DNA from: Alphaproteobacteria bacterium UBA4588
GTDB taxonomy: Bacteria > Pseudomonadota > Alphaproteobacteria > Rhodobacterales > Rhodobacteraceae
Reading direction: 5' to 3'
NCBI GenBank assembly: GCA_905182195.1
Contig: CAJJAW010000005.1
Span: 1-64,000 of the forward strand
Length of the DNA stretch: 64,000 bases
Shown here: positions 1 through 20,504 of the stretch, piece by piece
How the letters are laid out: every line of letters begins with the position of its first letter
Numbering within the stretch: the stretch's first letter is position 1
Notes under the pieces: model-generated
What the model was told of the DNA's origin: nothing
The model's input: only the letters and a program-made list of their open reading frames with translations
Databases searched by the model: none
Program-made: the position numbers and the translations under genes

Positions 1-1
1 C

Positions 2-601
2 ACATTGCCAAAGAGGATCAAAGGGCCAACGATTTTTATCTCCCTATTACCGATGATAGTGACACCCCTGATTGGATCGTTGATCTTGTTCTGGATGATT
101 GATGCCAACGGTATCTTAGGCGCGACGCTGCAACGGATATTTGATGATCCAGATCTATCACTGAAAGCATCCCCTACCCTTACTTGGATTATGCTTATGG
201 TTTACGGGGTATGGCACTCTGCGCCCTTCGCGTTCATCGTTTTCTATGCGGGGCTACAGACAGTGCCTGCCGACACAATGGAAGCAGCTATGATTGATGG
301 GGCCTCGCGTTGGGAGCGGACACGCTATGTTGTCTTGCCTCATTTGATGCCGCTTACGGTCTTCATTTCTCTGATCCAGTTGATGGACAACTTCCGCGTC
401 TTTGAGCCGATCGTCAGCTTTTCGGCCCAAGCCAGTGCCACTTCTTTGTCGTGGATTATCTACAACGACCTTGTTGGCACTGAGAGCCAGTTCTTTGGCT
501 CAGCCGGTGCTACCTCTGTCCTAACAATTATCGGTGTGAGCATCCTGCTTATTCCAGTGCTGATCCGCACTTGGCGCGACTTTAATCAGAAGGTGGTATG
601 A
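2..601 (+). CDS. ABC transporter permease, MalF/UgpA type (5' end outside window)
   Basis: This is the C-terminal two thirds of a carbohydrate-type (CUT1) inner-membrane permease. The visible protein has several hydrophobic membrane segments and the cytoplasmic EAA loop, seen as EAAMIDGASRWERTRYV around residue 92, which docks to the ATPase. Family members are about 290-300 residues with six membrane spans. Only about 199 residues are present and the frame is open to the window edge, so the start lies upstream. The stop overlaps the start of the next permease (ATGA), so the two are translationally coupled and form a heteromeric pair. The solute-binding protein and ATPase should lie further upstream. 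Substrate cannot be read from the sequence; a sugar, polyol or sulfonated polyol would fit the dehydrogenases downstream. Confidence 0.88.
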   Translation, partial: TLPKRIKGPTIFISLLPMIVTPLIGSLILFWMIDANGILGATLQRIFDDPDLSLKASPTLTWIMLMVYGVWHSAPFAFIVFYAGLQTVPADTMEAAMIDGASRWERTRYVVLPHLMPLTVFISLIQLMDNFRVFEPIVSFSAQASATSLSWIIYNDLVGTESQFFGSAGATSVLTIIGVSILLIPVLIRTWRDFNQKVV

Positions 602-1482
602 TGTCAGATATCGTTCATCGCCGTTCACCTGTTTTGAGTACGGTCATCTGGGGCCTTGTCCTGGTCTGGATCATAGCCGCAGGCTTTCCGTTCCTTTGGA
701 CGCTTTGGGGGTCTTTCAAGGTACAGGGCGACTTCTTCTCGAAGGCCGATTGGACCAACGCAGTTTATGGCGTGCGCACACAAATCGAAACGGGCGGTAC
801 TCTCACAGGCAATGGGTATTACGGCGCTTGGGTTACCAAAGAGTTTGGGCTTGCCGCGGTTAACACCAGCATCGTCGTGGTTTCTGTGGTTATCATCTCA
901 TTGACACTTGGTACCCTTGGGGGCTACGCCCTCGCCCGCTCAGGCAAGAAATATGCGTTCTATCTGTTGATGCTCGCCTTGGTATTTCGTGCCATGCCCC
1001 ACATCACTTTAGTATCTGGCTATCTCCTGCCGTTCTTTGAATGGAACCTCTGGGGACACTTACCGACTGCGATCATCGTGATGGTGGCAATTAATCAACC
1101 CTTCACCCTTTGGATGTTGCACAGCTTTTTCCTAAACATTCCCAAAGACCTAGACGAAAGTGCAATGGTTGATGGCTGCACACGTTTTCAAGCATTTCGT
1201 CATGTCATTGTGCCGGTCATGTGGCCAGGCGTTGTCACGACAGGCTTATTTTCCTTCTTGCTAGCCTACAATGACTTCACCGTGACCGCGACATTGCTAA
1301 GCCAAGCAAACCAGACGATGGTGCCAAAAATCGCCAGTTTCTTGGGAACAACCCAGACTGAGGGAAACATCATGTTTGCAGTTGCCGCAGTTGTTTCTGC
1401 AACTGCACCATTGTTTGTCTTGATCCTATTTTTCCAACGCCAAATCGTAAGTGGCCTAACAGCAGGAGCCGTCAAAGGATGA
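598..1482 (+). CDS. ABC transporter permease, MalG type
   Basis: This is the second inner-membrane permease of a CUT1-type importer, 294 residues, the usual family length. An N-terminal membrane helix at about residues 14-34 is followed by a periplasmic stretch and further helices. The EAA-type loop reads DESAMVDGCTRFQAFRHVIVP at about residues 188-208. Two adjacent ATG codons (598 and 601) could start it; both overlap the stop of the upstream permease. It runs into the next gene by a four-base overlap, which places the transporter and the catabolic genes downstream in one operon. Confidence 0.9.
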   Translation: MMSDIVHRRSPVLSTVIWGLVLVWIIAAGFPFLWTLWGSFKVQGDFFSKADWTNAVYGVRTQIETGGTLTGNGYYGAWVTKEFGLAAVNTSIVVVSVVIISLTLGTLGGYALARSGKKYAFYLLMLALVFRAMPHITLVSGYLLPFFEWNLWGHLPTAIIVMVAINQPFTLWMLHSFFLNIPKDLDESAMVDGCTRFQAFRHVIVPVMWPGVVTTGLFSFLLAYNDFTVTATLLSQANQTMVPKIASFLGTTQTEGNIMFAVAAVVSATAPLFVLILFFQRQIVSGLTAGAVKG

Positions 1483-2024
1483 GCGGAGCACGCCCAGAAC
1501 AAGCCGTATTGTCGCGCGACACAGACATGTCCAAAACGGCTGAAACCCGCGCGGTTATCGAAGGTATGGTTGATGGTCTCAACGACCACCGCATTGCGGA
1601 TATTGGTGAGTTTTTCAGTCAAGGGTTTAGCTGGATGGGCAACACAGGCTGTGGAACGAAAGCTGGTATCAAGGAATTCCAGGAAAACTGGCAAAAGCCG
1701 TTCCAAGCCGCATTCTCGGATAAGGTTTGCGTTGATGAGGCGCGCCTTTACATGGGCGAATGGGCCGCGGCATTTGGACGGCAAGAGGCTTTACACTCGG
1801 GCAAGTTTATGGGTGTCGAGGCCTCGGGCAAGCGGATTGAAATTCGCTACATGGATTTTTGGAAGGTGGAAAATGGCAAAATTACCGACAACTGGGTGAT
1901 GGTTGATTTTCCACACGTCCTTGTGCAATTGGGCGTGGATGTTTTCAACGGCCATGGCTGGGAAGCCTATGACCGTGGTGAGAAAACGCCACCCTCTCCT
2001 ACGACAGAAACAGGAAAAGACTGA
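1479..2024 (+). CDS. SnoaL/NTF2-fold protein (single domain)
   Basis: This 181-residue protein resembles SnoaL-like polyketide-cyclase/NTF2-fold proteins: a short helical start followed by alternating strands, ending with [19 protein letters not shown] near residues 126-144, typical of the fold's last strands. The same ending ([15 protein letters not shown]) recurs in the protein at 3354-4400, so the two are paralogues. The fold covers cyclases, isomerases, hydratases and non-enzymatic binding proteins, so the reaction is unknown. Start 1479 overlaps the permease stop; an in-frame ATG at 1527 (MSKTAETR) is an alternative. It overlaps the next gene by one base. Confidence 0.75.
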
Positions 2025-3353
2025 TGGCAGTAGAATACCTAAAACGCGGAAAACCAGACGTAGAGCGGGCTGAAGATGACGCTAAAACCAAAGCTGTCGT
2101 CGAAGTCACTTTGAAAGATATAGAGCTGCGCGGCGATGCAGCTGTGCGTGATCTATCAGCCAAGTTTGACAACTATACGCCCGCATCCTTCAAGCTGTCA
2201 CAAACGGAAATTGAGGGTCTGATCGCGTCCCTTTCGGATCGCGAATTGGCAGATATTAAGTTCGCCCAAGAACAGGTGCGCAATTTTGCACAAGCCCAGC
2301 GCGACAGCATGCTAGATATCGAAGTTGAAACAATGCCTGGCGTCATTCTAGGTCACAAGAACATCCCCGTTCAATCGGTTGGCTGTTATGTTCCAGGCGG
2401 TAAGTTCCCGATGGTTGCCTCGGCCCATATGTCTGTGGCCACAGCCACAGTTGCAGGCGTTCCACGGATCATTGCCTGCACCCCACCCTTTAACGGTAAA
2501 CCCAACGCCGCAGTGATCGCAGCCATGCACCTTGGTGGTGCACATGAAATCCACGTCGTGGGCGGTATCCAAGCCGTTGGTGCGATGGCCATTGGCACTG
2601 AAACAATCGAACCTGTTCATATGCTTGTCGGCCCGGGCAATGCGTTTGTCGCTGAAGCCAAACGCCAGTTGTTTGGTCGCGTGGGCATTGATTTGTTTGC
2701 AGGCCCAACAGAGACGATGGTGATTGCTGACGACACCGTTGATGGTGAGTTATGTGCGACCGACCTTTTGGGGCAAGCGGAGCATGGTTATAACAGCCCC
2801 GCCGTACTGCTGACCAATTCGCGTAAATTGGCCGAAGACACGCTGCGCGAAATCGATCGCTTGCTCAAAATCCTTCCAACTGCGGATACTGCATCTGTTA
2901 GCTGGGCGGATTACGGTGAAGTCATTTTATGTGATACCTATGACGAAATGCTGGCAGTTGCTGACGATATCGCGTCTGAGCATGTACAAGTCATGACAGA
3001 TCGTGACGATTGGTTTTTGGAGCACATGACCTGTTATGGTGCTTTGTTTCTTGGGGGCGCGCACGAACGTATCAAATGGGGATAAAGTGATCGGTACGAA
3101 CCACACGTTGCCAACCAAAAAGGCTGGTCGCTACACGGGCGGGCTTTGGGTTGGGAAATTCCTGAAGACCCATTCATACCAAAAGATTACTACAGACGAA
3201 GCCGCAACGCTGGTTGGCGAATACGGCAGCCGCCTCTGTATGCTTGAGGGGTTTGTAGGTCATGCTGAGCAATGCAACGTTCGCGTACGCCGCTATGGTG
3301 GGATCAACGTCCCATACGGCACAGGCGCGCCTTATCGGGATTTGAAAGATTAA
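2024..3353 (+). pseudogene. HpsN-like / histidinol-dehydrogenase-family dehydrogenase, frameshifted
   Basis: The family comprises zinc- and NAD-dependent dehydrogenases that oxidise an alcohol through the aldehyde to the acid. Members are histidinol dehydrogenase and sulfopropanediol (DHPS) 3-dehydrogenase HpsN. The sequence shows the VPGG turn, [13 protein letters not shown] and QAEHGYNSP (zinc-ligand Q..H), and after the shift [12 protein letters not shown] (late ligand His). The frame starting at 2024 leaves the family pattern after ALFLG. Reading resumes one base later as [20 protein letters not shown] and runs to the stop at 3351-3353. A run of five G (3053-3057) where four would keep frame is the likely site. 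The context (transporter, SDR) and absence of histidine genes favour HpsN-like over HisD, but substrate is unproven. Sequencing error is possible. Confidence 0.82.
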
Positions 3354-4400
3354 ATGAACGTCACTCGTAGCAATACCAAAGCAATCCAACCGCTGCTGGC
3401 GGCATTGCGTGATTTTGACGAAGCGACTGTACGAGCCGCGCTGCAACAGCTCATGGCACCGGACGCGATTGTTCACATGTGTCAACCTTTTGGGGATCTT
3501 GCAGCAGAGGCGCTTTACGATACTTGTTTTGCGCCCTTGTACGAATCCATGCCTGACCTTGAGCGGCGCGATACAATCCTTGTCAGCGGCAAAACCCCTG
3601 AGGGCAACGATTGGATTGGATGTTGTGGCTCTTACATTGGAACCTTTGCGGCCCCCTTTCTAGATATCCCACCGACGGGCCATCTCGCACATATGAGGTT
3701 TCACGAGTTTTACCGTTTTGTGGGGGGACAAATTGTTGAGGTTCAAGCGATCTGGGACATTCCAGAACTAATGATGCAGGCCAATGCATGGCCAATGGTT
3801 CCAAGTCTGGGTCGTGAATGGCATACCCCTGGCCCAATCACCCAAGACGGATTGCTGGACGCAACCGATCGAGAGGATCGCGCGCATTTCTGCCAAACTC
3901 ATGTGCTACAAATGCTGGCCGCGTTGGTGCGTCATCCTGCCGAACCTGTTGAAGCAATGGAACTTGAACGCTTTTGGCATCTTAAGATGACATGGTACGG
4001 GCCAGCGGGCATCGGTACTGCGCGTGGCATTTCTGGCTTTCGCCATTGGCATCAAATCCCCTTTCTAAACGCAATGCCAGATCGTGGGCAGTTTCCCGAT
4101 GAAACAACTTCCCACTTTTTCGCCGAAGGTGATTATGTCGCCGTCACTGGATGGCCAAATATGGTTCAAACTGTAACTGATCCAGGATGGATGGGTATTG
4201 CGCCCAATGATCAGAAGATTGAAATGCGATCCTTGGATTTCTGGCGTTTGGATGGTGACAAAATTCGGGAGAACTGGGTTCTTATTGATCTGCTTGATGT
4301 TTACCGCCAACTAGGCGTTGACGTGTTTGCACGCTTGCGCGAATTCAATAAAGCGCGGAACATCGGACCTTTGAATTTCCCTATCGGAGGCCGACTGTGA
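3354..4400 (+). CDS. Tandem SnoaL/NTF2-fold protein
   Basis: This 348-residue protein appears to hold two SnoaL-like halves. Residues about 10-140 contain a first copy (ending HMRFHEFYRFVGGQIVEVQ) and residues about 190-330 a second copy (MRSLDFWRLDGDKIRENWV, then QLGVDVFARL). The second half ends like the single-domain protein at 1479-2024. SnoaL-type proteins are small cone-shaped barrels that bind or transform hydrophobic or polyol-like substrates; no catalytic residues can be assigned here. It starts directly after the stop of the HpsN-like gene (TAAATG) and overlaps the SDR gene by four bases, so it is part of the same operon. Confidence 0.75.
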   Translation: MNVTRSNTKAIQPLLAALRDFDEATVRAALQQLMAPDAIVHMCQPFGDLAAEALYDTCFAPLYESMPDLERRDTILVSGKTPEGNDWIGCCGSYIGTFAAPFLDIPPTGHLAHMRFHEFYRFVGGQIVEVQAIWDIPELMMQANAWPMVPSLGREWHTPGPITQDGLLDATDREDRAHFCQTHVLQMLAALVRHPAEPVEAMELERFWHLKMTWYGPAGIGTARGISGFRHWHQIPFLNAMPDRGQFPDETTSHFFAEGDYVAVTGWPNMVQTVTDPGWMGIAPNDQKIEMRSLDFWRLDGDKIRENWVLIDLLDVYRQLGVDVFARLREFNKARNIGPLNFPIGGRL

Positions 4401-5155
4401 AACTACCAACGACACCGTCACTTTCGTTAAAAGGCATGCGCGCGTTGGTCACCGGTGCATCCTCTGGCATTGGCCAAGCCTGCGCTGTGGCAATGGCCGA
4501 AGCTGGTGCGATGGTTGTATGTGCCGCACGTGGCGCAGATCGCCTGAACGAAACCGTAGACGCCATGAAAAACAAAAGCTTGGGCGCTGAAGCGTTGGTT
4601 TTGGATCAATCAGATCTGGGCGCTTTGAAGGCAGTGTTGGCCGACCCGTTTGACATTATCATAAACTCAGCTGGTCTTGCCCGCCACAAGCCTGCACTTG
4701 AGACCCAGCCAGAGGATTTTGATGCTGTTATGGACGTGAATTTACGCTCGGCGTATTTCTTGTCCACCTATGCAGCCAAAGCTATGAAAGCTGCAAATAT
4801 TAAAGGGTCGATCATCCACATCTCATCGCAAATGGGTCATGTGGGCGGCTTTGACCGTACGGTGTACTGCACGTCCAAACACGCCCTTGAGGGTATGGTC
4901 AAAAGCATGGCGATTGAGTGGGGTGAATTGGGGATCAGGATTAACACAATCTGTCCAACCTTCATTCGAACACCTTTGACTGCCGCCACCTTGGATGATC
5001 CAGTCCGTGCTGCGTGGATCAACGATAAGATCAAACTTGGCCGCGTTGGCGAAGTTGAAGACATCATGGGGGCTGCGTTGTACCTGGCCTCTGGCGCGTC
5101 TTCGATGGTGACGGGCACCCACGTTCTTGTTGACGGAGGATGGACAGCTGGCTGA
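4397..5155 (+). CDS. SDR-family NAD(P)-dependent dehydrogenase
   Basis: This is a classical short-chain dehydrogenase of 252 residues. The Rossmann nucleotide motif TGASSGIGQA lies at about residues 19-28, NSAG at about 91-94, and the catalytic Ser/Tyr/Lys in ISSQMGHVGG and YCTSK. The closing VTGTHVLVDGGWTAG is typical of the gluconate 5-dehydrogenase/FabG-like group. It presumably oxidises or reduces a hydroxy intermediate of the operon's substrate. If the neighbouring dehydrogenase is truly HpsN-like, this could fill the role of an HpsO/HpsP-type dehydrogenase, but that is inference. The start overlaps the previous stop by four bases, and the end overlaps the LacI-type regulator. Confidence 0.9.
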   Translation: MKLPTTPSLSLKGMRALVTGASSGIGQACAVAMAEAGAMVVCAARGADRLNETVDAMKNKSLGAEALVLDQSDLGALKAVLADPFDIIINSAGLARHKPALETQPEDFDAVMDVNLRSAYFLSTYAAKAMKAANIKGSIIHISSQMGHVGGFDRTVYCTSKHALEGMVKSMAIEWGELGIRINTICPTFIRTPLTAATLDDPVRAAWINDKIKLGRVGEVEDIMGAALYLASGASSMVTGTHVLVDGGWTAG

Positions 5156-6167
5156 TCGCATCACATCGTTCCAAGTTGCCCAGCGTGCCGGTGTTAGTCA
5201 GTCCGCAGTCAGTCGTGTTTTCACCAAAGGCGCGTCTGTCAGTCCGAAAACCGAATTGAAGGTGCGTCAAGCTGCCCTTGAACTTGGATATCGACCTAAC
5301 GTTTTGGCGCGGTCCTTGATCACAGGAAAAAGCCGTATCATAGGGTTAATCGTTGCCTATTTGGACAACTATTTTTATCCTCTAGCACTTGAAAAACTAT
5401 CGAACTCATTGCAGGCAGAGGGATACCACGTTCTCGTTTTCATGGCTTCAAACGATACGCAATCAACGGATCAAGTAATCGACGAATTGTTAGACTATCA
5501 GGTCGATGGAATTATTACCGCCAGCGTTGGTATCTCTAATGATTTGACCGCCCGTTGTGCAGCGGCTGGTGTTCCTGTTGTCCTGTTCAACAGGTCACAG
5601 GATACGACCGACCATTCGGCTGTCACGTCCAACAACTTTGCAGGTGGACAATCAGTTGCTGCATTCTTTGCAGCCGGCCAGCACCAGCGCATCGGATATA
5701 TCGGTGGCTGGGAAGGCGCATCGACACAGCGCGATCGCGAAGCAGGTTTTCGCGATGGATTGACCCAAGCGGGCCTGCCCCTTGCGGCACACGAGTTGGG
5801 GAAATTTACTGTAGTCGGAGCCAAAGACGCTGCGCGTAAAATGTTTGACACCCCTACCCGCCCTGATGCCGTTTTTGTTGCCACTGACCACATGGCCTTC
5901 GCGGTGATGGATGTCATTCGCAGCGAACTGGGCTTGCGCATTCCAGAAGATGTCAGCGTGATTGGTTATGATGACGTCCCACCAGCAGCATGGGCTGCTT
6001 ATGACCTGACCACAGTGCGCCAACGCGCCAATGTCATGGTCCAAGAAACTGTAGCCCTCATAGTCGATAAAATTAGCAACCCTGCGTCCGAACCACACCA
6101 TATCAAAGTGGACAGCCCACTTGTGGTGCGTGGCTCTGCCAAAATTCCAGAAGGATGGACCTCATGA
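5127..6167 (+). CDS. LacI/GalR-family transcriptional regulator
   Basis: The N-terminus has the LacI helix-turn-helix pattern (TSFQVAQRAGVSQSAVSRVF, then the hinge region) followed by a periplasmic-binding-protein-like effector domain from about residue 70 (SRIIGLIV to the C-terminus). It likely senses the operon's substrate or an intermediate and represses the cluster, whose promoter would lie upstream of this window. There is no in-frame ATG before the helix-turn-helix. The start must be TTG at 5127 or 5130, or possibly CTG at 5148, all inside the end of the SDR gene, so translation is coupled and probably weak. Length (about 340 residues) is normal. Confidence 0.9.
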   Translation: MLTEDGQLADRITSFQVAQRAGVSQSAVSRVFTKGASVSPKTELKVRQAALELGYRPNVLARSLITGKSRIIGLIVAYLDNYFYPLALEKLSNSLQAEGYHVLVFMASNDTQSTDQVIDELLDYQVDGIITASVGISNDLTARCAAAGVPVVLFNRSQDTTDHSAVTSNNFAGGQSVAAFFAAGQHQRIGYIGGWEGASTQRDREAGFRDGLTQAGLPLAAHELGKFTVVGAKDAARKMFDTPTRPDAVFVATDHMAFAVMDVIRSELGLRIPEDVSVIGYDDVPPAAWAAYDLTTVRQRANVMVQETVALIVDKISNPASEPHHIKVDSPLVVRGSAKIPEGWTS

Positions 6168-7132
6168 AAGGTTTCTCAGATTGTTTCACCGATTTTCCCG
6201 ACTACATTTTAGGGATTACCCAAGAAATTTGGGAACAACGAAACATTGCGACATTGCATCACTACTATGCAAAGGAGATCCCAGTGCGTTCTCCAGGTTC
6301 AATTGTCTTTGGAAATGAAGGTGTTATTGGTGCAACGATGGCAACGCTCGCAGAATTTCCAGACAGACGGTTGCTTGGTGAGGACGTGATTTGGTCAGGA
6401 TCTCCAGAAGACGGGATGTTGTCTTCACACCGCATCCTCACCACGGCAACACATCTGGGAGATGGTGTCTACGGCAAGGCCACAGGCAAAAAACTTCAAT
6501 ACCGTGTTATTGCAGACTGTCACGCAATTAATAACCAAATAAACGACGAATGGCTCATTCGCGATCAGGGGGCAGTTGTCCGTCAACTTGGCTGGGATCC
6601 AAAAGAGTATGCCTATGATTTGATTGTGCGTGAGGGTGGCGCTGACAAGTGTGTGCAGCCCTTTCATCCCGCCATTGACAAGGTCGGGCCATACACAGGC
6701 CGTGGGAATGATAACGCTTGGGGTGCAAAATACGGGGATATCCTGAACCGCATTATGGGTGCAGACTTGGGCGTTATTCCTGCAGAATATGACCGTGCAG
6801 TGACAGGGTTTTACCCTGGTGGAAAGGAACTACTGTCCACCGATGGTGTTGATGAATTTTGGATTGGGCTGCGGGCAGCCTTCCCATCTGCTGCCTTTAC
6901 AATTGACCATCAAATCGGACGGGAAGACCCGATGATGTCGCCCCGCGCGGCTATCCGTTGGAGCCTAACAGGCAAACACGATGGTTGGGGAGCATTCGGT
7001 AAACCCTCAGGCGCTGAAGTTCACGTAATGGGAGCAAGCCATGTTGAGTTTGGTCCATGGGGCATCCGCCGCGAATACACTTTATTTGACGAAACTTCGA
7101 TCTGGAAACAGATCGCGCTGAAGACAGGATGA
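6164..7132 (+). CDS. SnoaL/NTF2-fold protein, two-domain
   Basis: This 322-residue protein resembles the SnoaL-like/ester-cyclase group and is the third such protein in the operon. Its first half ends in INDEWLIRDQGAVVRQLGWDP, which matches the N-W-x-x-x-D...QLGVDVF ending of the proteins at 1479 and 3354, so all three share ancestry. The second half (about residues 205-315) is another NTF2-like unit. I chose ATG 6164 because it sits 8 bases after AAGGA and overlaps the LacI stop (ATGA); an in-frame ATG at 6155 is also possible. Function unknown; association with polyol or sulfonate-type catabolism is inferred from position. Confidence 0.72.
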   Translation: MKGFSDCFTDFPDYILGITQEIWEQRNIATLHHYYAKEIPVRSPGSIVFGNEGVIGATMATLAEFPDRRLLGEDVIWSGSPEDGMLSSHRILTTATHLGDGVYGKATGKKLQYRVIADCHAINNQINDEWLIRDQGAVVRQLGWDPKEYAYDLIVREGGADKCVQPFHPAIDKVGPYTGRGNDNAWGAKYGDILNRIMGADLGVIPAEYDRAVTGFYPGGKELLSTDGVDEFWIGLRAAFPSAAFTIDHQIGREDPMMSPRAAIRWSLTGKHDGWGAFGKPSGAEVHVMGASHVEFGPWGIRREYTLFDETSIWKQIALKTG

Positions 7133-7136
7133 TTCA

Positions 7137-8105
7137 ATGACACCAGCCGAAATGGAAAACCGGATCGTGCGCTATGGCGATCTGATCCCTTGCAAAACAG
7201 CCTTTATCGACGCCCATACACCGGGCAGTGATCAGAAGGAAAACTTCACGATTATTGGTGGTGGTGTAAGTGAAAGTGTCGACCAACACGTGCACATTAA
7301 CGACACGCCTGGCTTCAACATTGGAGCCGCAGGCCAGCCGCCCAAATGCCGCAACTCGTTACACAGTCATACTACAGCTGAAGTGTTCTTCGTCCTGAAG
7401 GGGCGTTGGCGTTTCTTTTGGGGGCGTTGGGGCGATGCCGGCGAGGTCACACTGGAAGAAGGTGATATTATTAATATCCCAACTGATATTTTTCGCGGGT
7501 TTGAGAACATTGGCACCGATTACGGAATGATTATGGCTGTGCTGGGCGGCGACGATGCTGGTGGCGGCGTGACTTGGGCCCCTCAGGTGATCCAAGACGC
7601 TGCTGAGCATGGGCTAATTCTTGCCGAAAACGGGAAATTATATGATACTAAACAAGGGGCTACATTGCCCGAGGGCGTGAAACCCATGCCCGTTCTGAGC
7701 GATGCAGAGCTTGCCAAAATAGCCGAACCTGCCGCTTTGGACGTGATTCCACGCCATGTTGCGCGTTATCTTGATCTGATGGGGTTGGCCGGAAAACTAC
7801 CTGTCAAAGTCATTGGCGTCGATGCGATCCTGCCAGACAAGCCTGGCTTTGACGTCGAATTCATTACGCGCGGGTCTTTGAAAAATACGTCCATTTCTAT
7901 TGATCATTCCGTTGTTTTGATGCCGATGCGTGGATACTGGAAGTTGTCTTGGGACGGTGGGTCATCGACATTGAACCCAGGGGACACATGTTTACTGCCA
8001 GCCAGTTTCACGCACACGCTGCAACCCTCGATGACAGGCGAAGCAAGCCTTTATCGTGTTGTTTCCAACGACGATCCAGCGGGACCAACCTGGACTGGAA
8101 AATAA
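7137..8105 (+). CDS. Bicupin protein
   Basis: This 322-residue protein contains two cupin barrels. The first has metal-site-like residues in SLHSHTTAEVFFVLKGRWRF and the second motif EEGDIINIP at about residues 79-117. The second barrel lies near residues 240-315 (HSVVLMPMRGYWKL, LNPGDTCLLP, SFTHTL). Cupins include isomerases, dioxygenases and non-catalytic binding proteins. With sugar-type transport and dehydrogenases nearby, an isomerase or lyase acting on the substrate is plausible but unproven. AGGA upstream of ATG 7137 supports the start; it lies 4 bases after the SnoaL-type gene. Confidence 0.8.
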   Translation: MTPAEMENRIVRYGDLIPCKTAFIDAHTPGSDQKENFTIIGGGVSESVDQHVHINDTPGFNIGAAGQPPKCRNSLHSHTTAEVFFVLKGRWRFFWGRWGDAGEVTLEEGDIINIPTDIFRGFENIGTDYGMIMAVLGGDDAGGGVTWAPQVIQDAAEHGLILAENGKLYDTKQGATLPEGVKPMPVLSDAELAKIAEPAALDVIPRHVARYLDLMGLAGKLPVKVIGVDAILPDKPGFDVEFITRGSLKNTSISIDHSVVLMPMRGYWKLSWDGGSSTLNPGDTCLLPASFTHTLQPSMTGEASLYRVVSNDDPAGPTWTGK

Positions 8106-8138
8106 CAACGCACCCAAGCTGAATTGGAAAGAATCACC

Positions 8139-9263
8139 ATGACTAAAATCCTGACCTCACATGTTGGCAGCTTGCCACGAACCCAAGATATTGTTGATTT
8201 CATTTTTGCGCGCGAAAATGAGCAACCTTATGACCAAGCGGCTTTTGACGCGGCCATGACCTTAGCAGTTGATGAAACTGTAGCGAAACAAGTCAAGGCC
8301 GGTATCGATATTGTCAGCGATGGCGAGACCTCAAAAATCTCGTACGCCACTTACGTTAAGGACCGCTACACAGGGTTTTCTGGTGACAGTCCCCGCAATG
8401 CGCCAGCAGATTTAAAAATGTTCCCAGGGTTTTTAAAACGCCTGGCTGACGACGGTGGGACCCCTCAATATGCGCGCCCAATGTGCACAGGTGCCGTGGA
8501 GTCAAAGGGCCAAGGCGAATTGCACAAAGACATCAACAATCTTAAGGATGCGATGGCGAACCACGGGGTCAATCGTGGCTTTATGAACGCGGCATCGCCA
8601 GGCGTTATTTCTCTGTTCCTGCAAAACGATTACTACAAAACACGCGAGGCATATCTAGCCGCTCTCGGTGACGCAATGCGCGAAGAATATGAAACTATTG
8701 TTGCCTCCGGCCTTGATCTTCAACTGGATTGCCCCGACCTAGCATTATCGCGTCACATGTTGTTCCAAGACCTTTCTGACAAAGAGTTCCTGAAAGTTGC
8801 CGCGTCCCATGTGGAAGCTCTAAACCATGCTTTGGAAAACGTTCCAGAGGATAGGGTGCGCATTCACATCTGTTGGGGCAATTACGAGGGGCCGCATTGT
8901 TGCGATATCCCGATGGACACTGTTTTCTCGACGCTTATGTCAACAAAAGCGCAATACCTCCTGTTTGAAACCTCAAATCCACGTCACGCCCACGAATGGA
9001 CTGTTTTTCGCGATCGTAAGTCAGAAATTCCTGATAACAAAGTTCTTGTACCAGGTGTGGTGGATACCACGACAAACTTTGTCGAGCATCCAGAATTGGT
9101 GGCGCAGCGTATTGAACGTTTTACCGGGATCGTTGGGTCTGATCGAGTTATCGCAGGCTCTGATTGTGGTTTTGGAACCTTTGCCGGTTTTGGTGCGGTT
9201 GATCCCGACATCGCATATGCCAAACTAAAGTCTCTTTCGGAAGGCGCGGCGTTGGTTGGATGA
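8139..9263 (+). CDS. Cobalamin-independent methionine synthase II-like zinc methyl/alkyltransferase
   Basis: This 374-residue protein matches the C-terminal barrel of MetE, the stand-alone group that includes epoxyalkane:coenzyme M transferase and uncharacterised methyltransferase-like enzymes. It begins with the family's SHVGSLPRT. The zinc-site residues are seen as HICWGNYEGPH (His-x-Cys) around residue 245 and the late Cys in GSDCGFGTF around residue 345. The N-terminal half of full MetE, which binds the folate tail, is absent, so it is unlikely to be the housekeeping methionine synthase. ATG 8139 follows GGAAAG. It may transfer or cleave a C-S or C-O bond of the operon's substrate. It overlaps the next ORF by four bases. 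Confidence 0.85.
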   Translation: MTKILTSHVGSLPRTQDIVDFIFARENEQPYDQAAFDAAMTLAVDETVAKQVKAGIDIVSDGETSKISYATYVKDRYTGFSGDSPRNAPADLKMFPGFLKRLADDGGTPQYARPMCTGAVESKGQGELHKDINNLKDAMANHGVNRGFMNAASPGVISLFLQNDYYKTREAYLAALGDAMREEYETIVASGLDLQLDCPDLALSRHMLFQDLSDKEFLKVAASHVEALNHALENVPEDRVRIHICWGNYEGPHCCDIPMDTVFSTLMSTKAQYLLFETSNPRHAHEWTVFRDRKSEIPDNKVLVPGVVDTTTNFVEHPELVAQRIERFTGIVGSDRVIAGSDCGFGTFAGFGAVDPDIAYAKLKSLSEGAALVG

Positions 9264-9484
9264 CACCCCTCGTCTTACTACCAGGCATGATGTGTGATGC
9301 GCGGCTATTTGCGCTTGTGTTGTGTGGGAGAGACGACATTTTGTGCCCTGTATCGCGCCACACGTTGATGGCCGATTGCCTTAGCGGCGCGACATTGAAA
9401 ATGATTGAAGGTGCAGGGCATTTGCCAGTGCTGGAATCCCCTGAAGAGACGAATGCGGCACTTGCCTGCTGGCTGGAGAACTGA
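9260..9484 (+). pseudogene. Alpha/beta hydrolase, internal deletion remnant
   Basis: The 74-residue frame joins the first strand of an alpha/beta hydrolase (LVLLPGMMCDARLF) directly to the C-terminal part (LVLCGRDDILCPV, then EGAGHLPVLESPEE, with the acidic and histidine members of the triad). About 150 residues normally between them, including the nucleophile elbow G-x-S-x-G and the lid, are missing. The frame is kept and there is no stop, so this looks like a clean in-frame deletion with its junction near 9305-9320. It cannot be a working hydrolase. Start and stop overlap the neighbours exactly as an intact operon gene would. Confidence 0.75.
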
Positions 9485-10180
9485 ATGAACGACACGCTTT
9501 TGACACTACTGAAAAAGGTAGACACGCCGACCGTTTGCAACGCGATTGAAGTCGCCCAAGGCAAGCGCGGTTTCAATGCATTTACGCGCGGAACAATGCT
9601 GGCCTCGGATCCTGGTGCGCCCGCTATGGTGGGCTATGCCCGGACTGCTCGTATTGCGGCAGTGAACCCACCAACAGAGACACCAGACGTGATTAAAGCC
9701 CGTAGAATGGCATATTATCGCCATATGGCAGAAGGGTCACGTCCAGCGATAGCAGTGGTTGAGGACGTTGATTTTCCAGAATGTATCGGCGCATACTGGG
9801 GCGAGATTAACACAAACATTCATAAAGGGTTTGGCCTTTCCGGTGCGCTGACTAACGGAGTGATGCGCGACCTTGGTGATCTGCCTGATGGCTTTCCAGT
9901 TGTGGCAGGCTCTATTGGACCCAGTCATGGGTTCGTGCATGTGACAGAGGTGGGAACTACGGTCTCAGTATTTGGAATGCAGGTTGCCGATGGAGACCTG
10001 ATCCATGCGGATCGGCACGGCGCGTTGGTTATTCCACCCAATCTTCTGCCAATTCTAGAAAAGGCAATATATAAACTGTTGGACACCGAAAAGCTTATCC
10101 TCGACCCAGCCCGCCAAAATGGTTTTGACTTTAACGCATTCGAGGCTGCATGGGCGGCCTTTGAAAGCGCGCGCACCTGA
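9485..10180 (+). CDS. RraA-like / HMG-aldolase-family protein
   Basis: This 231-residue protein belongs to the RraA/4-hydroxy-4-methyl-2-oxoglutarate aldolase fold. It shows GYART near residue 40, the GALTNGVMRDL pattern near residues 119-129 that carries the conserved Arg-Asp pair of the divalent-metal pyruvate aldolases, and GDLIHADRHGALVIP near the end. Family members cleave 4-hydroxy-4-carboxy-2-oxoacids to pyruvate or decarboxylate oxaloacetate. Some are RNase E regulators, which are shorter. As the last gene of the catabolic operon, an aldolase making central metabolites fits. The start ATG follows the previous stop immediately. Confidence 0.85.
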   Translation: MNDTLLTLLKKVDTPTVCNAIEVAQGKRGFNAFTRGTMLASDPGAPAMVGYARTARIAAVNPPTETPDVIKARRMAYYRHMAEGSRPAIAVVEDVDFPECIGAYWGEINTNIHKGFGLSGALTNGVMRDLGDLPDGFPVVAGSIGPSHGFVHVTEVGTTVSVFGMQVADGDLIHADRHGALVIPPNLLPILEKAIYKLLDTEKLILDPARQNGFDFNAFEAAWAAFESART

Positions 10181-12275: not shown

Positions 12276-14258
12276 ATGCGTTTGATTTTTAGACTATTTT
12301 TCACAATTGCTGCACTTTTATGTGCAGGTTTTGCGCATGCGGCGCCCACAATTACCAGCACCACCATCAATGGGGCAAACTCCGAGCTGACGGTTACATT
12401 TAGTGAGGCTGTTTTCACCACGACCGATGGTTCTTCGCCTTTAGTGCCAGGTGACTTTACACTTTCAATGGCAGGTGGCGTGGCGACGATCGCTTCATTT
12501 GATAGTGTCGCAAGAACTTCAGATACAGAGTGGGTACTTAACTTCACTACAGCAGGAATTGCTGATGGATCTGAAGTTATCAAAGCTGTTCCAGCCAGCT
12601 CAAGCTCAATCTATGACGGAGCTAATAATCCTGCCGCAGTTGTGCAATCTAACAACACTGCGAGCCTAAATGAAAAAGTCTTACCGATAATTGCGGGGAC
12701 GGCTATCAATGCTGCCAACACTGAGCTGACCGTTACATTTAATGAGGACGTTTTCAGCACGACAGGTGGTGGCCCTGCAAATTTAGTGACAGGTGACTTT
12801 ACACTTTCAATTACAGGTGGCGTGGCGACGATCGCCTCATTTGATAGTGTCGCAAGAACTTCAGATACAGAGTGGGTACTTACCTTCACCACAGCAGGAA
12901 TTGCTAATGGATCTGAACGTATAACAGTTGTTCCTGCCAGCTCAAGCTCGATCTATGACGGAGCTGACAATGCTGCCGCAGCTACGCAATCTAACAACAA
13001 TGTGCTTTTGAATGAGAAGGTCGTACCCACACTCAGCAGTGTAAGCATAACTTCCAATAATGCGACCCCCACCTTGGCAGTTCATAATAACGTTGTGACC
13101 CTCACCTTTACTGCCAGCGAAACGCTTTCGGCGGCAGTGGTGACGTTTTCGAGTGGTGGAACTCCTATTAACTCCGGCAGGGTCACGCCGTCTAACAGTG
13201 GCAACGCTTGGACTTTTTCGTATAGTGCCCTCAATACTGACCCAGACGGCCAAATTACCTTCAGTGTCGCATTCACCGATGCCGCTGGAAATGTAGGAAC
13301 TCCTGAAACCAACGTTGACGATTCAAGTAGTGTCTTGTTTGATAAAAGCCCTCCCACACTAGGCCCCGTGACCATAGCATCAGACAACTCAACTTCAACT
13401 AGTTGGGCTAAAACTGGTGATGAGGTGACACTCAGCTACACTTCCAATGAAACTCTTCAGACGCCGCCGACAGTGGTGTTCCTGTCCGGCGGTCAGCCTG
13501 TTGTAAACAGACTTGGACACACTCCCGCCATTACCTATGCTAACACTGGAAATAGCTACACTGCACAGTACACGGCCGCGGGCGGTGATACGGAAGGCGT
13601 ACTGAGTTACATTATTACCTTTGCGAACCAGCACGGTATCAGCGGTGTTCCCGTCACTGGACCAACTAACTCAAGCAGCGTTACATTTGATAAAACTGCG
13701 CCCACTCTGAGCAATTTTACCCTTAACGCAAACAATACACACTCAACCCATGTATCGCTTCAAGCCAGTCCATTGGTGACCCTTAGGTTTCGCTCTAGTG
13801 ACCCGCTTACCGGCCTGCCAACGGTGACATTTACGACTGCTGGTAGCAACGCCACTGCGGCCACTCCAACAGTGACCCACAATGGGAACAATTGGTATAC
13901 TGCAACCTATGTTCCTCATATCAGTGATACACAGGGTCTTATCACCTACAATATCAGCAATTTCACCAATCTCTCTGGAACTGGCGGAACAACCGTCAGC
14001 AGAAACGATGGCAATGTTACATACGAAACAGTAGTACCCACACTCAGCAATGTGGATATTGAGACCAACAATGTAGCAGATGATACAGTTGGGATTAATG
14101 GCAATATCGTGACACTTGTCTTCACGCAGAGTGAGGATCTGATAGTACGTCCAGTGGTGGTGTTTAAGTCTGGTGGTGTCGCTATAACAGACCAAACTAT
14201 TAAAAAAGAAAAAGTCGGCAACTGTATACACTTATTCATATACAATCATGGCAGGTGA
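12276..14258 (+). CDS. Giant Ig-repeat surface protein, N-terminal segment
   Basis: This frame encodes the start of a predicted exported adhesin-like protein. It opens with a Sec signal (MRLIFRLFFTIAALLCAGFAHA, cleavage before APT). Two SwmB-like repeats of about 112 residues follow, sharing GGVATIASFDSVARTSDTEW. Then come Ig-like repeats of about 110 residues built on a plan of S-N-N, V-T-L-x-F, P-x-V-x-F-x-S-G-G, W-x-x-x-Y, G-x-x-x-Y-x-I-x-F and V-x-F-D-K-x-x-P-T. The frame leaves this pattern after KKEKVGN and stops at 14256-14258. The pattern continues in the next frame (+1) from about 14219 as ATVYTYSYTIMAGDAGGP. The break lies near the A6 and A5 runs at 14202-14213. Confidence 0.85.
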   Translation: MRLIFRLFFTIAALLCAGFAHAAPTITSTTINGANSELTVTFSEAVFTTTDGSSPLVPGDFTLSMAGGVATIASFDSVARTSDTEWVLNFTTAGIADGSEVIKAVPASSSSIYDGANNPAAVVQSNNTASLNEKVLPIIAGTAINAANTELTVTFNEDVFSTTGGGPANLVTGDFTLSITGGVATIASFDSVARTSDTEWVLTFTTAGIANGSERITVVPASSSSIYDGADNAAAATQSNNNVLLNEKVVPTLSSVSITSNNATPTLAVHNNVVTLTFTASETLSAAVVTFSSGGTPINSGRVTPSNSGNAWTFSYSALNTDPDGQITFSVAFTDAAGNVGTPETNVDDSSSVLFDKSPPTLGPVTIASDNSTSTSWAKTGDEVTLSYTSNETLQTPPTVVFLSGGQPVVNRLGHTPAITYANTGNSYTAQYTAAGGDTEGVLSYIITFANQHGISGVPVTGPTNSSSVTFDKTAPTLSNFTLNANNTHSTHVSLQASPLVTLRFRSSDPLTGLPTVTFTTAGSNATAATPTVTHNGNNWYTATYVPHISDTQGLITYNISNFTNLSGTGGTTVSRNDGNVTYETVVPTLSNVDIETNNVADDTVGINGNIVTLVFTQSEDLIVRPVVVFKSGGVAITDQTIKKEKVGNCIHLFIYNHGR

Positions 14259-17200
14259 TGCCGGCGGCCCGGTCACCTACACCATAGACTTTAAAGATTA
14301 TGCCGAAAATCCAGGAGTAACCATCACCAATGGTTGCGGCGCCTGCTCCGGCAGTGCGGTAGTTGATAGGACATTACCGACACTCAACAGTGTTGCCATT
14401 TCTTCAAATAATGCAGCCAACTCCGCCACCCACGCGAAGGCCGGTAATGCCGTGACACTCAGTTTTAACCAAAGTGAAACACTTGCAGCAGCGCCAACTG
14501 TGACATTTACGAGTGGTGGAATTGATATTAACGCCAGCAGGATCGCGACCAGTAGCGGTGGAGCACCCGGCTGGACATCGACATATACAACCGCCAATAC
14601 TGACTTAGATGGGCCCATCTCCTACAGAATTACCTTTAGTGATACTGCGGGCAATGCAGGAATAGCCGTCACAGGTAGCGGCGCTGTAGTATTTGATGAC
14701 GAAGCGCCAACAATTAGCAACGTAAGCATCGCGTCCAACAACTCGGTTCCAACCTTAGCGAAGGCTGGTAATGTGGTGACCCTCAGCTACACTGGCAACG
14801 AAACTCTTGTTCATCCACAAGCAGTGACGTTTACGAGTGGTGGTGGTGCTATTGCCTCCAACAGGGTCACCTATACTGACGACGGAGCAAGAAATTATAC
14901 TGCAAAGTATACAACCGCCAACGGTGATACAGAGGGAGCGGTAAGCTACACTATCGTTTTCAAAGATCTTGCGGATAATAACGGGACAAATATAACCAGC
15001 GGCAGTGGCAGCGTCACATTTGATAAGTCAGCACCCACACTGGTAGGCAGCACCAGCACTCCAGCCGATAACGCCACAGGGGTTTCTAGGAATGCAAATA
15101 TTGTTCTAAATTTTAATGAACTTATTACTGCAGGTAGTGGTAATATAACAGTAAATCTCACTGGAACATCAACTGAAACCTTTGCTGTAGGTGGGTCCAA
15201 GGTGTCAATTTCTGGAGCAACAATGACGCTCAATCCAGCCAGTGACTTTAACGCATCGGCTAGTTATGATGTTCAAGTGCCCAACACTGCAGTTGCCGAT
15301 ATGGCTGGTAATGCCTACGCCGGTATCTCAAATGCAACCACGCGTAACTTTACCACCGGGACTGGCTCTGGGCCTACAATTAACGCTGTCACATTACTGT
15401 CAGGCAACAACTTAGCTAAAGCTGGTGAAGTTGTAACCCTAACCTTCACAGCAAGTGTACAGATTAATACCCCAGTAGTTGTCTTTCGGTCGGGCGGCGC
15501 AGCTGTTGAAAACAGACTTGGAAATGGCAGCGGCATTACCTACACTCACTTGGGAAGCAACGAATGGACAGCGGCCTACACGGCTCACGCCAGTGATACC
15601 GACGGCACAATTAGCTACAACCTTACGACCACAGCGTTTGGAACTTCTAATTCAAGTACCTTTACTGGCAACGGTGTCACCTTTGATGCCAGCGCACCCA
15701 CACTTAGCAGCGTTGGCGTAGCATCAAACAACTCAACGTCAAACAGTTCAGCTAAAAATGGAGATGAAGTAACACTCAGCTTTACTGCTAGCGAAACCAT
15801 TGCAGCACCGACAGTTGTATTCCTGTCCAATGGTCAGCCTGTTGCTGATCGGCTCAATATCATCTACGCAAGCAGTGGGAATGACCACACGGCAAAGTAT
15901 ACGGCCGCGGGCAGTGATACAGACGGGGTAGTGAGTTACACTATTACCTTTACAGATAGCGCCGGAAACGCTGGGACAGACGTCACTGGGCCAACTAACG
16001 CAAGCAGCGTTACTCATGATGGAACTGCGCCCACTCTAAGTAATTATATATTCACGTCAGACAACGCCACAAACACCCGTGCGAATGCTGGTGATCGAGT
16101 GACCCTCGTCTTCACTGCCAATGAGCCTATCGTATCTGATGGGACATCAGGAACGCTAGCAGTAGCATTTAAGACTGCTGGCAGTAATGCCGTCACCAAC
16201 GCCACCTCTATTACAAACCCTAATGGAAACACATTTCATGCTTCGTATATTGTCGCTGGCGGCGACGTAGACGGCGCTATAACCTACATTATAAACTTTA
16301 CAAATGAAGCTGGAATTGCAGGAACTCAGGTTAGCCAAGTCGGCGGTGTCACCTCCGATAATACGGCACCGACAGCCAGTGCCGCTATAGCGTCAAACAA
16401 TGCCGATGCCAGCTGTTGTGCCGCCTTTGCAGAACCCGGTGATCTGGTAATCGTTACGATAAGTGCAAACGAAAACATTGCCCAGCCAGTAGTATCGTTC
16501 GAGTCCGGGGGGCATGCTATTACCAATGCTCTTTCTGTTACTTACGGCGGTAGTGGGACGTCTTGGACCGCCCAGTATACTGCCCACGCGAATGACACTG
16601 AAGGCGCTGTCACTTACAGTATCTCCTTTGATGACGAAGCGGGGAATTCAGGCACATCGGTCACCAGCGGTTCCGGCAGCGTTACATTTGACAAGATTGC
16701 ACCCACAATCGCTGCCGGTGCTAACAGCGTACGACTTGTATCTACCAATAATCCAACCACCCTCGCGAACGACCACGATGTTCCTATTGATGATTTTGTA
16801 ATACTTACATTCACAGCCAATGAAATACTTGAGCAGCCAACAGTAGTATTTAAGTCCGGTGGTAGCGTTGTGCACAACCGGGGTAACATCATCTACGCAT
16901 TTTCTAATAATAAAACAACTTGGACAGCAAAATATGCACCTCATTCAAGTGATAGTGAGGGCAATGTCACCTTCACTCTCGACTTTAACGATCGCGCTGG
17001 AAATGATGCAACTCAAGTAACCAGCACGACTGACTCAAGTGCCGTTGAAGTTGACCTTGATCATCCGGAACTAACCGCAACTCCATCTATAATTTCCAAC
17101 AATAGTACCAATACCTTAGCAAAGGCTGGTGATACTATAACTCTCACCTTTGTTACCGATGAAGAAACACATACGCCAACGGTCATATTCAGGAGCAACG

Positions 17201-19824: not shown

Positions 19825-20504
19825 GACTGTACCTAACATCACCGCCGTAGGCATTGCATCTAACAATGCCGCCCCCGGCCCCACAACTCACGCAAAAGTT
19901 GGCCATGTGGTAACCCTCACGTTCACTACTAATGAAGCAATACAGACCCCAACAGTCGTATTTACCTCCAATGGTGCGGCTGTTGCCGGTGGCGTCACCT
20001 ACAACAACCCTGCTAATAAAAGAAGTTGGACTGCGCAGTATACGACCCAAAATGGCGACACTGAGGGAACGGTCGGCTACACGATAGACTTCACCGACCT
20101 GGCGGGGATCAAGAATGGGGCGGTTGTTACCAGCGGCCACGCCACCAACGTTACATTCGATAGGACTGTACCTAACATCACCGCCGTAGGCATTGCATCT
20201 AACAATGCCGCCCCCGGCCCCACAACTCACGCAAAAGTTGGCCATGTGGTAACCCTCACGTTCACTACTAATGAAGCAATACAGACCCCAACAGTCGTAT
20301 TTACCTCCAATGGTGCGGCTGTTGCCGGTGGCGTCACCTACAACAACCCTGCTAATAAAAGAAGTTGGACTGCGCAGTATACGACCCAAAATGGCGACAC
20401 TGAGGGAACGGTGGGCTACACGATAGACTTTACCAACCTGGCGGGGATCGATGGGACGGATGTCTCCAGCGGCCACGCCACCAACGTTACATTAGATAAG
20501 ACCG
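19156..20504 (+). repeat. Four near-identical tandem repeats of about 336-340 bp
   Basis: Copies begin at about 19156, 19492, 19832 and 20171 (CCTAA..ATCACCGCCGTA) and end near 20504. Spacings are 336, 340, 339 and about 333 bases. Over most of their length the copies are identical at the DNA level, unlike the diverged Ig repeats around them. This points to recent tandem duplication or gene conversion. The 340-base second copy carries the extra base that shifts the reading frame; the third copy, 339 bases, is in frame. Short-read assembly of this stretch would be unreliable. Confidence 0.93.

Follow-up and report, generated by a model that had tools for sequence, protein, structure and literature searches.

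A conserved operon of SnoaL-type, HisD/HpsN-type and MetE-type proteins in Rhodobacteraceae that may serve the uptake and breakdown of a sugar-like compound under LacI control

The described systems closest to the gene cluster considered here, which occupies the first 10.2 kb of a 64,000-nucleotide stretch (the window) from the member of the Rhodobacteraceae Alphaproteobacteria bacterium UBA4588, are catabolic pathways for sugars and for sulfonates. The window starts at base 1 of contig CAJJAW010000005.1 (C5), and all genes of the cluster lie on its + strand. Non-phosphorylative oxidative pathways for sugars and sugar acids, of the lactonase-aldolase type, are similar to this locus in their uptake by CUT1-type ATP-binding cassette (ABC) or tripartite ATP-independent periplasmic (TRAP) transporters, in a LacI regulator, a short-chain dehydrogenase/reductase (SDR) and a lactonase-like hydrolase, and in a terminal aldolase yielding pyruvate. 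However, the operon proteins scanned include no enolase-type or IlvD/Edd-type dehydratase, and comprise instead SnoaL-type proteins, a bicupin, a MetE-like protein and a dehydrogenase of the HisD/HpsN superfamily (HDH). With the degradation cluster for 2,3-dihydroxypropane-1-sulfonate (DHPS), hpsRNOUP-suyAB of Cupriavidus pinatubonensis (PMC11382572), and with hpsN-comDE loci, the operon shares an HDH/HpsN-type four-electron alcohol dehydrogenase, an SDR and a local regulator, but it differs in the HDH motif, no sulfolyase or sulfopyruvate genes were seen in it, and nothing in those clusters corresponds to its genes for SnoaL proteins, bicupin, MetE-like protein, hydrolase and aldolase. A full-text literature search reaching few subscription papers or preprints found no description of a pathway with this gene set, as an initial annotation made from the sequence had already supposed; in the parts available, the words histidinol and cyclase do not occur in PMC4052901, nor does SnoaL-like in the main text of PMC9040609.

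The locus is a conserved set of about fourteen genes that is common among the marine bacteria of its family. All gene types named in the initial annotation were recovered with Pfam and NCBIfam profiles, running on the + strand from the transporter to the RraA-like aldolase:

2..601, + strand: 3' part of ABC transporter permease A (CUT1, sugar type), with the start on contig C3; Pfam BPD_transp_1; complete 344-aa open reading frame (ORF) at L006:11340-12374
598..1482, + strand: ABC transporter permease B (CUT1); Pfam BPD_transp_1; nearest NCBIfam models GlcU/MalG, below cut-off
1479..2024, + strand: SnoA1, single-domain SnoaL protein; PF07366, E 1e-16; among solved sequences closest to 1sjw, the nogalonic acid methyl ester cyclase
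2024..3353, + strand: HDH, alcohol dehydrogenase (zinc/NAD) forming a third subfamily in the HisD/HpsN superfamily; PF00815 (first piece), TIGR00069 (both pieces), C3 overlap, tree and motif
3354..4400, + strand: SnoB2, two-domain SnoaL protein; two PF07366 stretches, structure model, Foldseek
4397..5155, + strand: SDR oxidoreductase; best NCBIfam model KduD, below cut-off
5127..6167, + strand: LacI-family regulator, proposed binder of the upstream TTGCAnnCGnnTGCAA; PF00356 and PF13377
6155..7132, + strand: SnoC2, two-domain SnoaL protein with 6164 as a possible alternative start; two PF07366 stretches
7137..8105, + strand: bicupin; PF07883, alignment, structure model, Foldseek
8124..9263, + strand: MetE-type zinc protein from the family of cobalamin-independent methionine synthase II, comprising the C-terminal half alone; PF01717, conserved zinc ligands
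9264..9484, no strand: 221-base gap at the usual site of a PcaD-like alpha/beta hydrolase gene in many relatives, absent here (ORF list)
9485..10180, + strand: RraA-like aldolase; PF03737

The last 4818 bases of contig C3 (G000:C3:279773-284590) overlap window positions 1-4818 end to end with 98.2% identity, and C3 therefore carries the upstream genes of the locus, namely those for an ABC ATPase, a solute-binding protein (whose solved relatives are generic sugar binders) and the full first permease, together with the divergently oriented SnoD2. The three SnoaL proteins noted initially, two of them with two domains, are indeed those of the window, and SnoD2 adds a fourth SnoaL gene and a third two-domain one. 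A true duplication of the operon, with two 98% copies in the genome, was ruled out, as what look like two copies are contig ends that overlap. The HDH frame is split by a one-base difference near window position 3055, where the window reads five G and C3 reads four, and it runs through without a break on C3, where another one-base difference fuses SnoA1 with HDH and the frames of the ATPase and the binding protein are broken. As each contig copy has its own one-base indels, these are most likely strain variants or assembly errors; the genes broken on C3 or C5 are intact ORFs in the nearest named relative (L055), and we infer that the frame breaks in both copies are assembly or strain noise. 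The indels fall in different genes in each copy, and the assembly holds strain variants or homopolymer errors.

The tight packing by overlaps of one to four bases that had been noted for the genes is seen at the stop/start positions 598/601, 1479/1482, 2024 and 4397/4400, but does not extend to the whole locus. HDH and SnoB2 adjoin without overlap at 3353/3354, the LacI gene as called (TTG start, 5127) overlaps that of the SDR by 29 bases, and SnoC2 overlaps LacI by 4 bases with the ATG start at 6164 or by 13 with the start at 6155. Downstream the spacing is looser, with gaps of 4 and 18 bases flanking the bicupin gene and 221 bases preceding RraA. No Rfam match and no tRNA was found in the window.

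With respect to the conservation of the locus, the initial view of a single catabolic-looking operon is borne out by the recurrence of the block in 80 named loci picked by SnoB2 from 206 confirmed stretches, and at 60 places in the family picked by the bicupin. In the former set SnoC2, HDH and SnoA1 are each present in 69 loci, LacI in 67, the bicupin in 63, the SDR in 59, SnoD2 in 58, RraA in 54 and the MetE-like protein in 52. HDH, SnoB2, LacI, SnoC2 and the bicupin occur all together in 63 of the 80, and 6 of the 57 named loci of at least 20 kb lack this full set.

Because the named set had been picked by SnoB2, a second sample was drawn on the bicupin, which occurs at 82 places in 79 of 198 family genomes (about 40%, own genome included). 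As this marker gene is so widespread, the substrate is probably a common compound. The neighbour counts cover 60 of these places, from 59 genomes and without the own genome and a further 21 places; 4 of the 60 stretches have DNA in common with named loci. HDH was found in 55, LacI in 53, SnoC2 in 49, the SDR in 45, the MetE-like protein in 44, SnoB2 in 43, an alpha/beta hydrolase in 41 and SnoA1 in 29; since several stretches stop at contig ends, absences are upper bounds, and ABC and LacI matches below about 40% identity, probably unrelated paralogues, are scored as present. The downstream gene order is kept in 49 of the 60 loci, a test that loci with few genes pass trivially. SnoC2 and the MetE-like protein occur both in 43 of these loci, SnoC2 alone in 6, the MetE-like protein alone in 1 and neither in 10 (p = 1e-6, Fisher's exact test, only indicative as the genomes are related). 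Beyond the family, SnoB2 relatives were found in 28 of 385 genomes of a class-wide sample, and relatives of SnoC2 and of the MetE-like protein in 23 and 27, respectively, of 398 genomes of a phylum-wide sample, own genome included in each case. The neighbourhood search therefore shows these gene families together and not only singly in unrelated places, and a chance mix of genes was ruled out, as the same genes recur together across genera.

Further evidence for a functional unit comes from the promoter region. In 60 of 141 loci, those in which SnoD2 and the ABC gene are divergent and close, the palindrome TTGCAnnCGnnTGCAA, derived from the same 60 regions, is found between the two genes exactly in 58 and, with one mismatch allowed, in all 60, as compared to at most one of 60 base-shuffled regions; in 49 regions it is doubled, with the copies 54-56 bases apart. 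When the regions were searched for 16-base palindromes of any sequence, allowing a single mismatched pair, 51 of the 60 contained one, versus 4.1 after shuffling. The UBA4588 copy lies outside the window at G000:C3:276857, and no site with up to one mismatch is found inside the window. In 16 genomes hand-picked among the operon carriers and scanned throughout, an exact site is present at the operon in 12, and in G932 one (G932:C4:782192) precedes an unlinked locus of ABC binding protein, two permeases and SnoB2. A conserved palindromic operator at the target promoter, as expected for a local regulon, is thus present, and we infer from the sequence that the LacI protein of the operon binds TTGCAnnCGnnTGCAA.

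Another perfect palindrome, TTGCAACCGGTTGCAA, recurs outside the operon at G000:C1:216022, C1:223661 and C5:125734 as well as in seven others of the genomes scanned, and is probably the operator of another LacI-type regulator, presumably a GapR-type site. Such sites (CCGG type) were taken as another regulator's and excluded from the off-operon counts.

The dehydrogenase is the component that links the operon most directly to sulfonate degradation. According to PMC11382572, HpsN carries the motif G-R-Y-A/S-H, whose final His126 binds the sulfonate, HisD carries G-S-A-P-L, and the positions QAEHG, EH and an Asp-Lys pair are tied to zinc and catalysis. Among solved structures the first HDH piece matches the (R)-DHPS dehydrogenase 8wwe best (E 3.5e-97) and true HisD less well, and HDH retains the zinc and catalytic residues of HpsN (QAEHG, EH and GDK with the Asp-Lys pair). 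However, GRY[AS]H is absent: 72 of 73 HDH-family ORFs carry GKFPM, the exception being an amidase-linked class in Martelella, and six outer relatives carry GKYPL, so that the position of the final HpsN His is occupied by Met or Leu. In a tree of 27 rows the operon enzymes form one group (support 92/99; not starred, in a tree that warns of long branches), which is sister to HpsN and separated from a fourth class, whose motif is GRYP[LI]LSAP. In addition, the same genome harbours at G000:C7:168000-187900 (L237) a canonical HpsN (GRYSH) adjoining both subunits of sulfopyruvate decarboxylase, which score above cut-offs. Motif, tree and this separate hpsN-comDE locus together make a sulfonate substrate unlikely and a third specificity likely; by its sequence, HDH represents a third subfamily beside HisD and HpsN.

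Inspection by eye of the gene clusters recurring in at least four named or at least three of the 60 family loci revealed no sulfolyase (SuyAB, CuyA, Xsc) and no sulfopyruvate decarboxylase; ten of the thirteen neighbour clusters of the family loci were also scanned, and a rare one could be missed. The sulfonated polyol suggested initially as substrate thus finds no backing, and the DHPS pathway itself was rejected on account of the HDH motif, the lack of a visible sulfolyase in recurrent clusters and the separate hpsN-comDE locus. Histidine synthesis was also rejected, as HDH lacks G-S-A-P-L and a closer HisD candidate, with the motif GLASY, lies at G000:C4:42771. The L237 locus also holds an SDR, a zinc-type alcohol dehydrogenase and a LacI gene in two ORFs. 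Members of the GRYP[LI]LSAP class are found at G000:C4:189116-190321 and in L144, L167 and L168; in rhizobia and enterobacteria-like genomes this class has both an amidase-signature protein and a long SnoaL protein in its vicinity, neither of which adjoins the UBA4588 copy.

The SnoaL proteins carry the PF07366 fold of the SnoaL polyketide cyclase type and are alike in domain fold to the SnoaL/NTF2 enzymes SnoaL, IdmH, SnoaL2, Lsd19, MonB and limonene epoxide hydrolase, SnoB2 having two fused domains like Lsd19. The N-W-V...Q-L-G motif that had been noted as common to them does occur but is not special to these proteins, as the same stretch aligns to the cyclase 1sjw. Unlike the described enzymes, they sit together with a transporter. 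The top Foldseek matches of the SnoB2 model (pLDDT 93.3) are MonB and Lsd19, polyether epoxide hydrolases with two domains, but the superposition over the whole chain is poor (TM score about 0.3, root-mean-square deviation 16-17), whereas one SnoB2 domain fits single-domain polyketide cyclases well, for instance IdmH (TM score 0.79 by target). Glu118 and Asp295 of SnoB2 are invariant in 37 aligned rows of 99 matches, each located in the strand preceding the last strand of its domain, and SnoA1 has a conserved Asp126 in a motif matching this acid motif. Acid/base catalysis by the SnoaL proteins is therefore plausible. Since the profile matches of the operon proteins include no dehydratase family, and hence no known sugar-acid dehydratase, the dehydratase role in the pathway proposed below is provisionally given to the SnoaL proteins.

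With core MetE, the MetE-like protein shares the zinc ligands and the GSLPR and DCG motifs, but it lacks the N-terminal half, and its gene clusters with those of SnoaL or NTF2 proteins not only in Roseobacter relatives but also in three sphingomonads and a haloarchaeon. His248, Cys250, Glu282 and Cys348, at what we take to be the zinc-ligand positions of MetE (His-x-Cys, Glu, Cys), are invariant in 28 rows and align to the solved MetE relative 3rpd. The methylated substrate that the initial annotation also suggested may apply, the protein retaining all four ligands and co-occurring with SnoaL genes. The ligands of metal-dependent cupin dioxygenases follow the pattern His-x-His ... Glu ... His. 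In the bicupin (31 rows of 70 matches) conservation is at least 90% for both His76 and His78, Glu82 is invariant, and an invariant Arg120 stands where the pattern has its last metal-binding His. Foldseek places salicylate 1,2-dioxygenase, quercetinase and oxalate decarboxylase first for the bicupin model (pLDDT 81), with poor whole-chain superposition (TM score 0.4-0.5). For RraA, no solved relative was found at E 0.001. In UBA4588 its sequence is 76% identical to the L055 copy, as compared to 95% for the MetE-like protein and HDH, and the hydrolase is missing (window 9264-10180); as a side reading, the missing hydrolase and diverged RraA might indicate that in this lineage the last step is relaxed or has been replaced.

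Additional members of the 80 named loci are an alpha/beta hydrolase (46 loci), a metal-dependent amidohydrolase (30), an S-adenosylmethionine-dependent methyltransferase (14) and a glucose-methanol-choline oxidoreductase (5). The nearest curated models, all below cut-off, are 3-oxoadipate enol-lactonase types (PcaD) for the alpha/beta hydrolase and L-fucono-1,5-lactonase for the amidohydrolase. The enzyme core stays constant while the transporter varies among lineages: CUT1 ABC genes adjoin the core in Roseobacter relatives and Sinorhizobium medicae, TRAP genes lie next to ABC genes in Roseibium aggregatum, and Pfam matches show TRAP genes in L170 and a major facilitator superfamily (MFS) gene in both L167 and L168, while L169 and L250 have genes for a sodium:solute symporter and a TonB receptor (L167-L170 belonging to another class of the same phylum, L250 to the same class). 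By Pfam, an HpcH/HpaI aldolase occupies the expected place of RraA in L168, L169, L170 and L250, the nearest models of the L168 protein being HpaI and GarL. The occurrence of two aldolase families at one place suggests that a retro-aldol step giving pyruvate is the conserved element.

In turn, SnoaL genes with a transporter but without the enzyme core are found in Phaeobacter piscinae and Vibrio pelagius. The association of SnoaL and MetE-like genes extends to the archaea, as five SnoaL genes adjoin a MetE-like gene on a plasmid of the haloarchaeon Halobellus limi (L136:6747-13140). In three sphingomonads the MetE-like gene adjoins just one gene of the NTF2 type; this pair lies, in Croceicoccus and Novosphingobium, inside a cluster with genes of the aminomethyltransferase type, for methylenetetrahydrofolate reductase and purU, which in Sphingobium lie 6-10 kb from the MetE-like gene. 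Members of the MetE-like family without SnoaL neighbours occur in Rhodococcus, Natrinema and several other loci. We take the locus to consist of two modules, an upper one formed by the SnoaL set and the MetE-like protein, and a lower one formed by HDH, SDR, bicupin, hydrolase and aldolase.

While gene content, conservation, the operator, the HDH subfamily and the zinc sites were observed directly, all reactions and their order are conjectural. The locus might be a LacI-controlled operon for the uptake and breakdown of a small polar sugar-like compound that carries a hydroxymethyl group beside a hydroxyl, and we put forward this proposal, including the pathway that follows, tentatively, as somewhat short of probable in its entirety. 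The substrate would be imported by the CUT1 ABC transporter (by TRAP, MFS or TonB-plus-symporter systems in some other lineages), HDH would oxidise the CH2OH group to a carboxylate at the expense of two NAD+ (four electrons), and the SDR would convert a secondary alcohol to a ketone. In the loci that have them, the amidohydrolase and the alpha/beta hydrolase might open lactone or enol-lactone intermediates. The SnoaL proteins would carry out cofactor-free acid/base steps, be it dehydration, isomerisation or retro-aldol cleavage, at the place usually taken by sugar-acid dehydratases, and the MetE-like zinc protein might transfer a methyl or thiol group in the same upper part. Finally, RraA, or HpcH/HpaI with the same expected reaction class in some relatives, would split a 4-hydroxy-2-oxo acid into pyruvate and an aldehyde.

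Several observations weigh against this proposal. An exact operator is missing from the operon in four of the 16 scanned carrier genomes (G310, G568, G787 and G911). Away from the operon there are, not counting the CCGG type, eight exact sites; three of them were inspected, one preceding operon-type genes and two adjoining unrelated genes. The bicupin lacks the usual third metal-binding His. What is presumably the catalytic base of SnoaL, Asp121, aligns to Val140 of SnoA1 in the alignment of SnoA1 alone with 1sjw, so that classical cyclase chemistry is unsupported and the SnoaL step is a guess. RraA was found in just 30 of the 60 family loci, partly because stretches end early, and RraA-family proteins also include decarboxylases and non-enzymes. 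Since TRAP and amidase variants exist, the substrate may moreover vary.

An alternative hypothesis assumes that the SnoaL proteins are not pathway enzymes but ligand-binding or scaffold proteins holding reactive intermediates. The presence of up to five SnoaL genes in one locus, as in Halobellus limi, and the lack of conservation of the presumed catalytic Asp would fit such a role; we nevertheless consider it unlikely, given the invariant acid in each SnoB2 domain, the many known or proposed enzymes among the top fold matches, and a dehydratase role that no other scanned operon protein would fill. The degradation of an aromatic or quinone-like compound, in which the bicupin would act as a ring-cleaving dioxygenase followed by hydrolase and aldolase as in meta-cleavage, is suggested by the salicylate 1,2-dioxygenase and quercetinase heading the Foldseek matches, by the similarity of the alpha/beta hydrolase to PcaD and by the presence of the MetE-like family in sphingomonad clusters with ligA and ligK genes. 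Yet a sugar-type transporter under LacI control, the Arg in place of the third metal ligand, the poor whole-chain fit of the bicupin and the lack of a hydroxylase or monooxygenase among the operon-protein matches render it improbable. Catabolism of a sulfonated, DHPS-like polyol, with HDH acting as HpsN, could draw on 8wwe as best solved match, on the sister position of the two groups in the tree and on the retention in HDH of Lys353, which in HpsN helps to hold the sulfonate; it is, however, highly improbable in view of the GKFPM and GKYPL motifs in place of GRY[AS]H, the separate operon group (support 92/99), the absence of a visible sulfolyase among recurrent neighbours and the canonical hpsN-comDE locus elsewhere in the genome.

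Starting from the proposed operon for a sugar-like compound, a more specific but distinctly unlikely version would see in it the dedicated route for an abundant methylated cyclic polyol from algae and other hosts, with the SnoaL proteins as a new class of catabolic dehydratases or lyases that take over from sugar-acid dehydratases, the MetE-type protein demethylating the substrate onto homocysteine or another thiol, and HDH performing a third function within its superfamily, in addition to the oxidation of histidinol and of DHPS. Cyclohexenones of the mycosporine/gadusol type have an O-methyl group and a hydroxymethyl group beside a tertiary hydroxyl and might, speculatively, be one candidate substrate. 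Naming the substrate would add a missing arrow to the carbon exchange between algae and bacteria, would assign a function to several SnoaL families and to a MetE-like family, and would define a third activity in the HisD/HpsN superfamily. With an operator at hand and named cultured strains among the carriers (Ruegeria, Shimia, Roseibium and Oceanicola), the system is directly testable.

Apart from the operon, window positions 12276-24571 encode a very large protein with Ig-like repeats (Big_5) that is split into three long ORFs overlapping in different frames. At L006:2213-3157, an ORF that by eye begins like ribosomal protein L21 continues into a long repeated tail of LLWQNRQQK units, which is perhaps a frame-shifted repeat extension.

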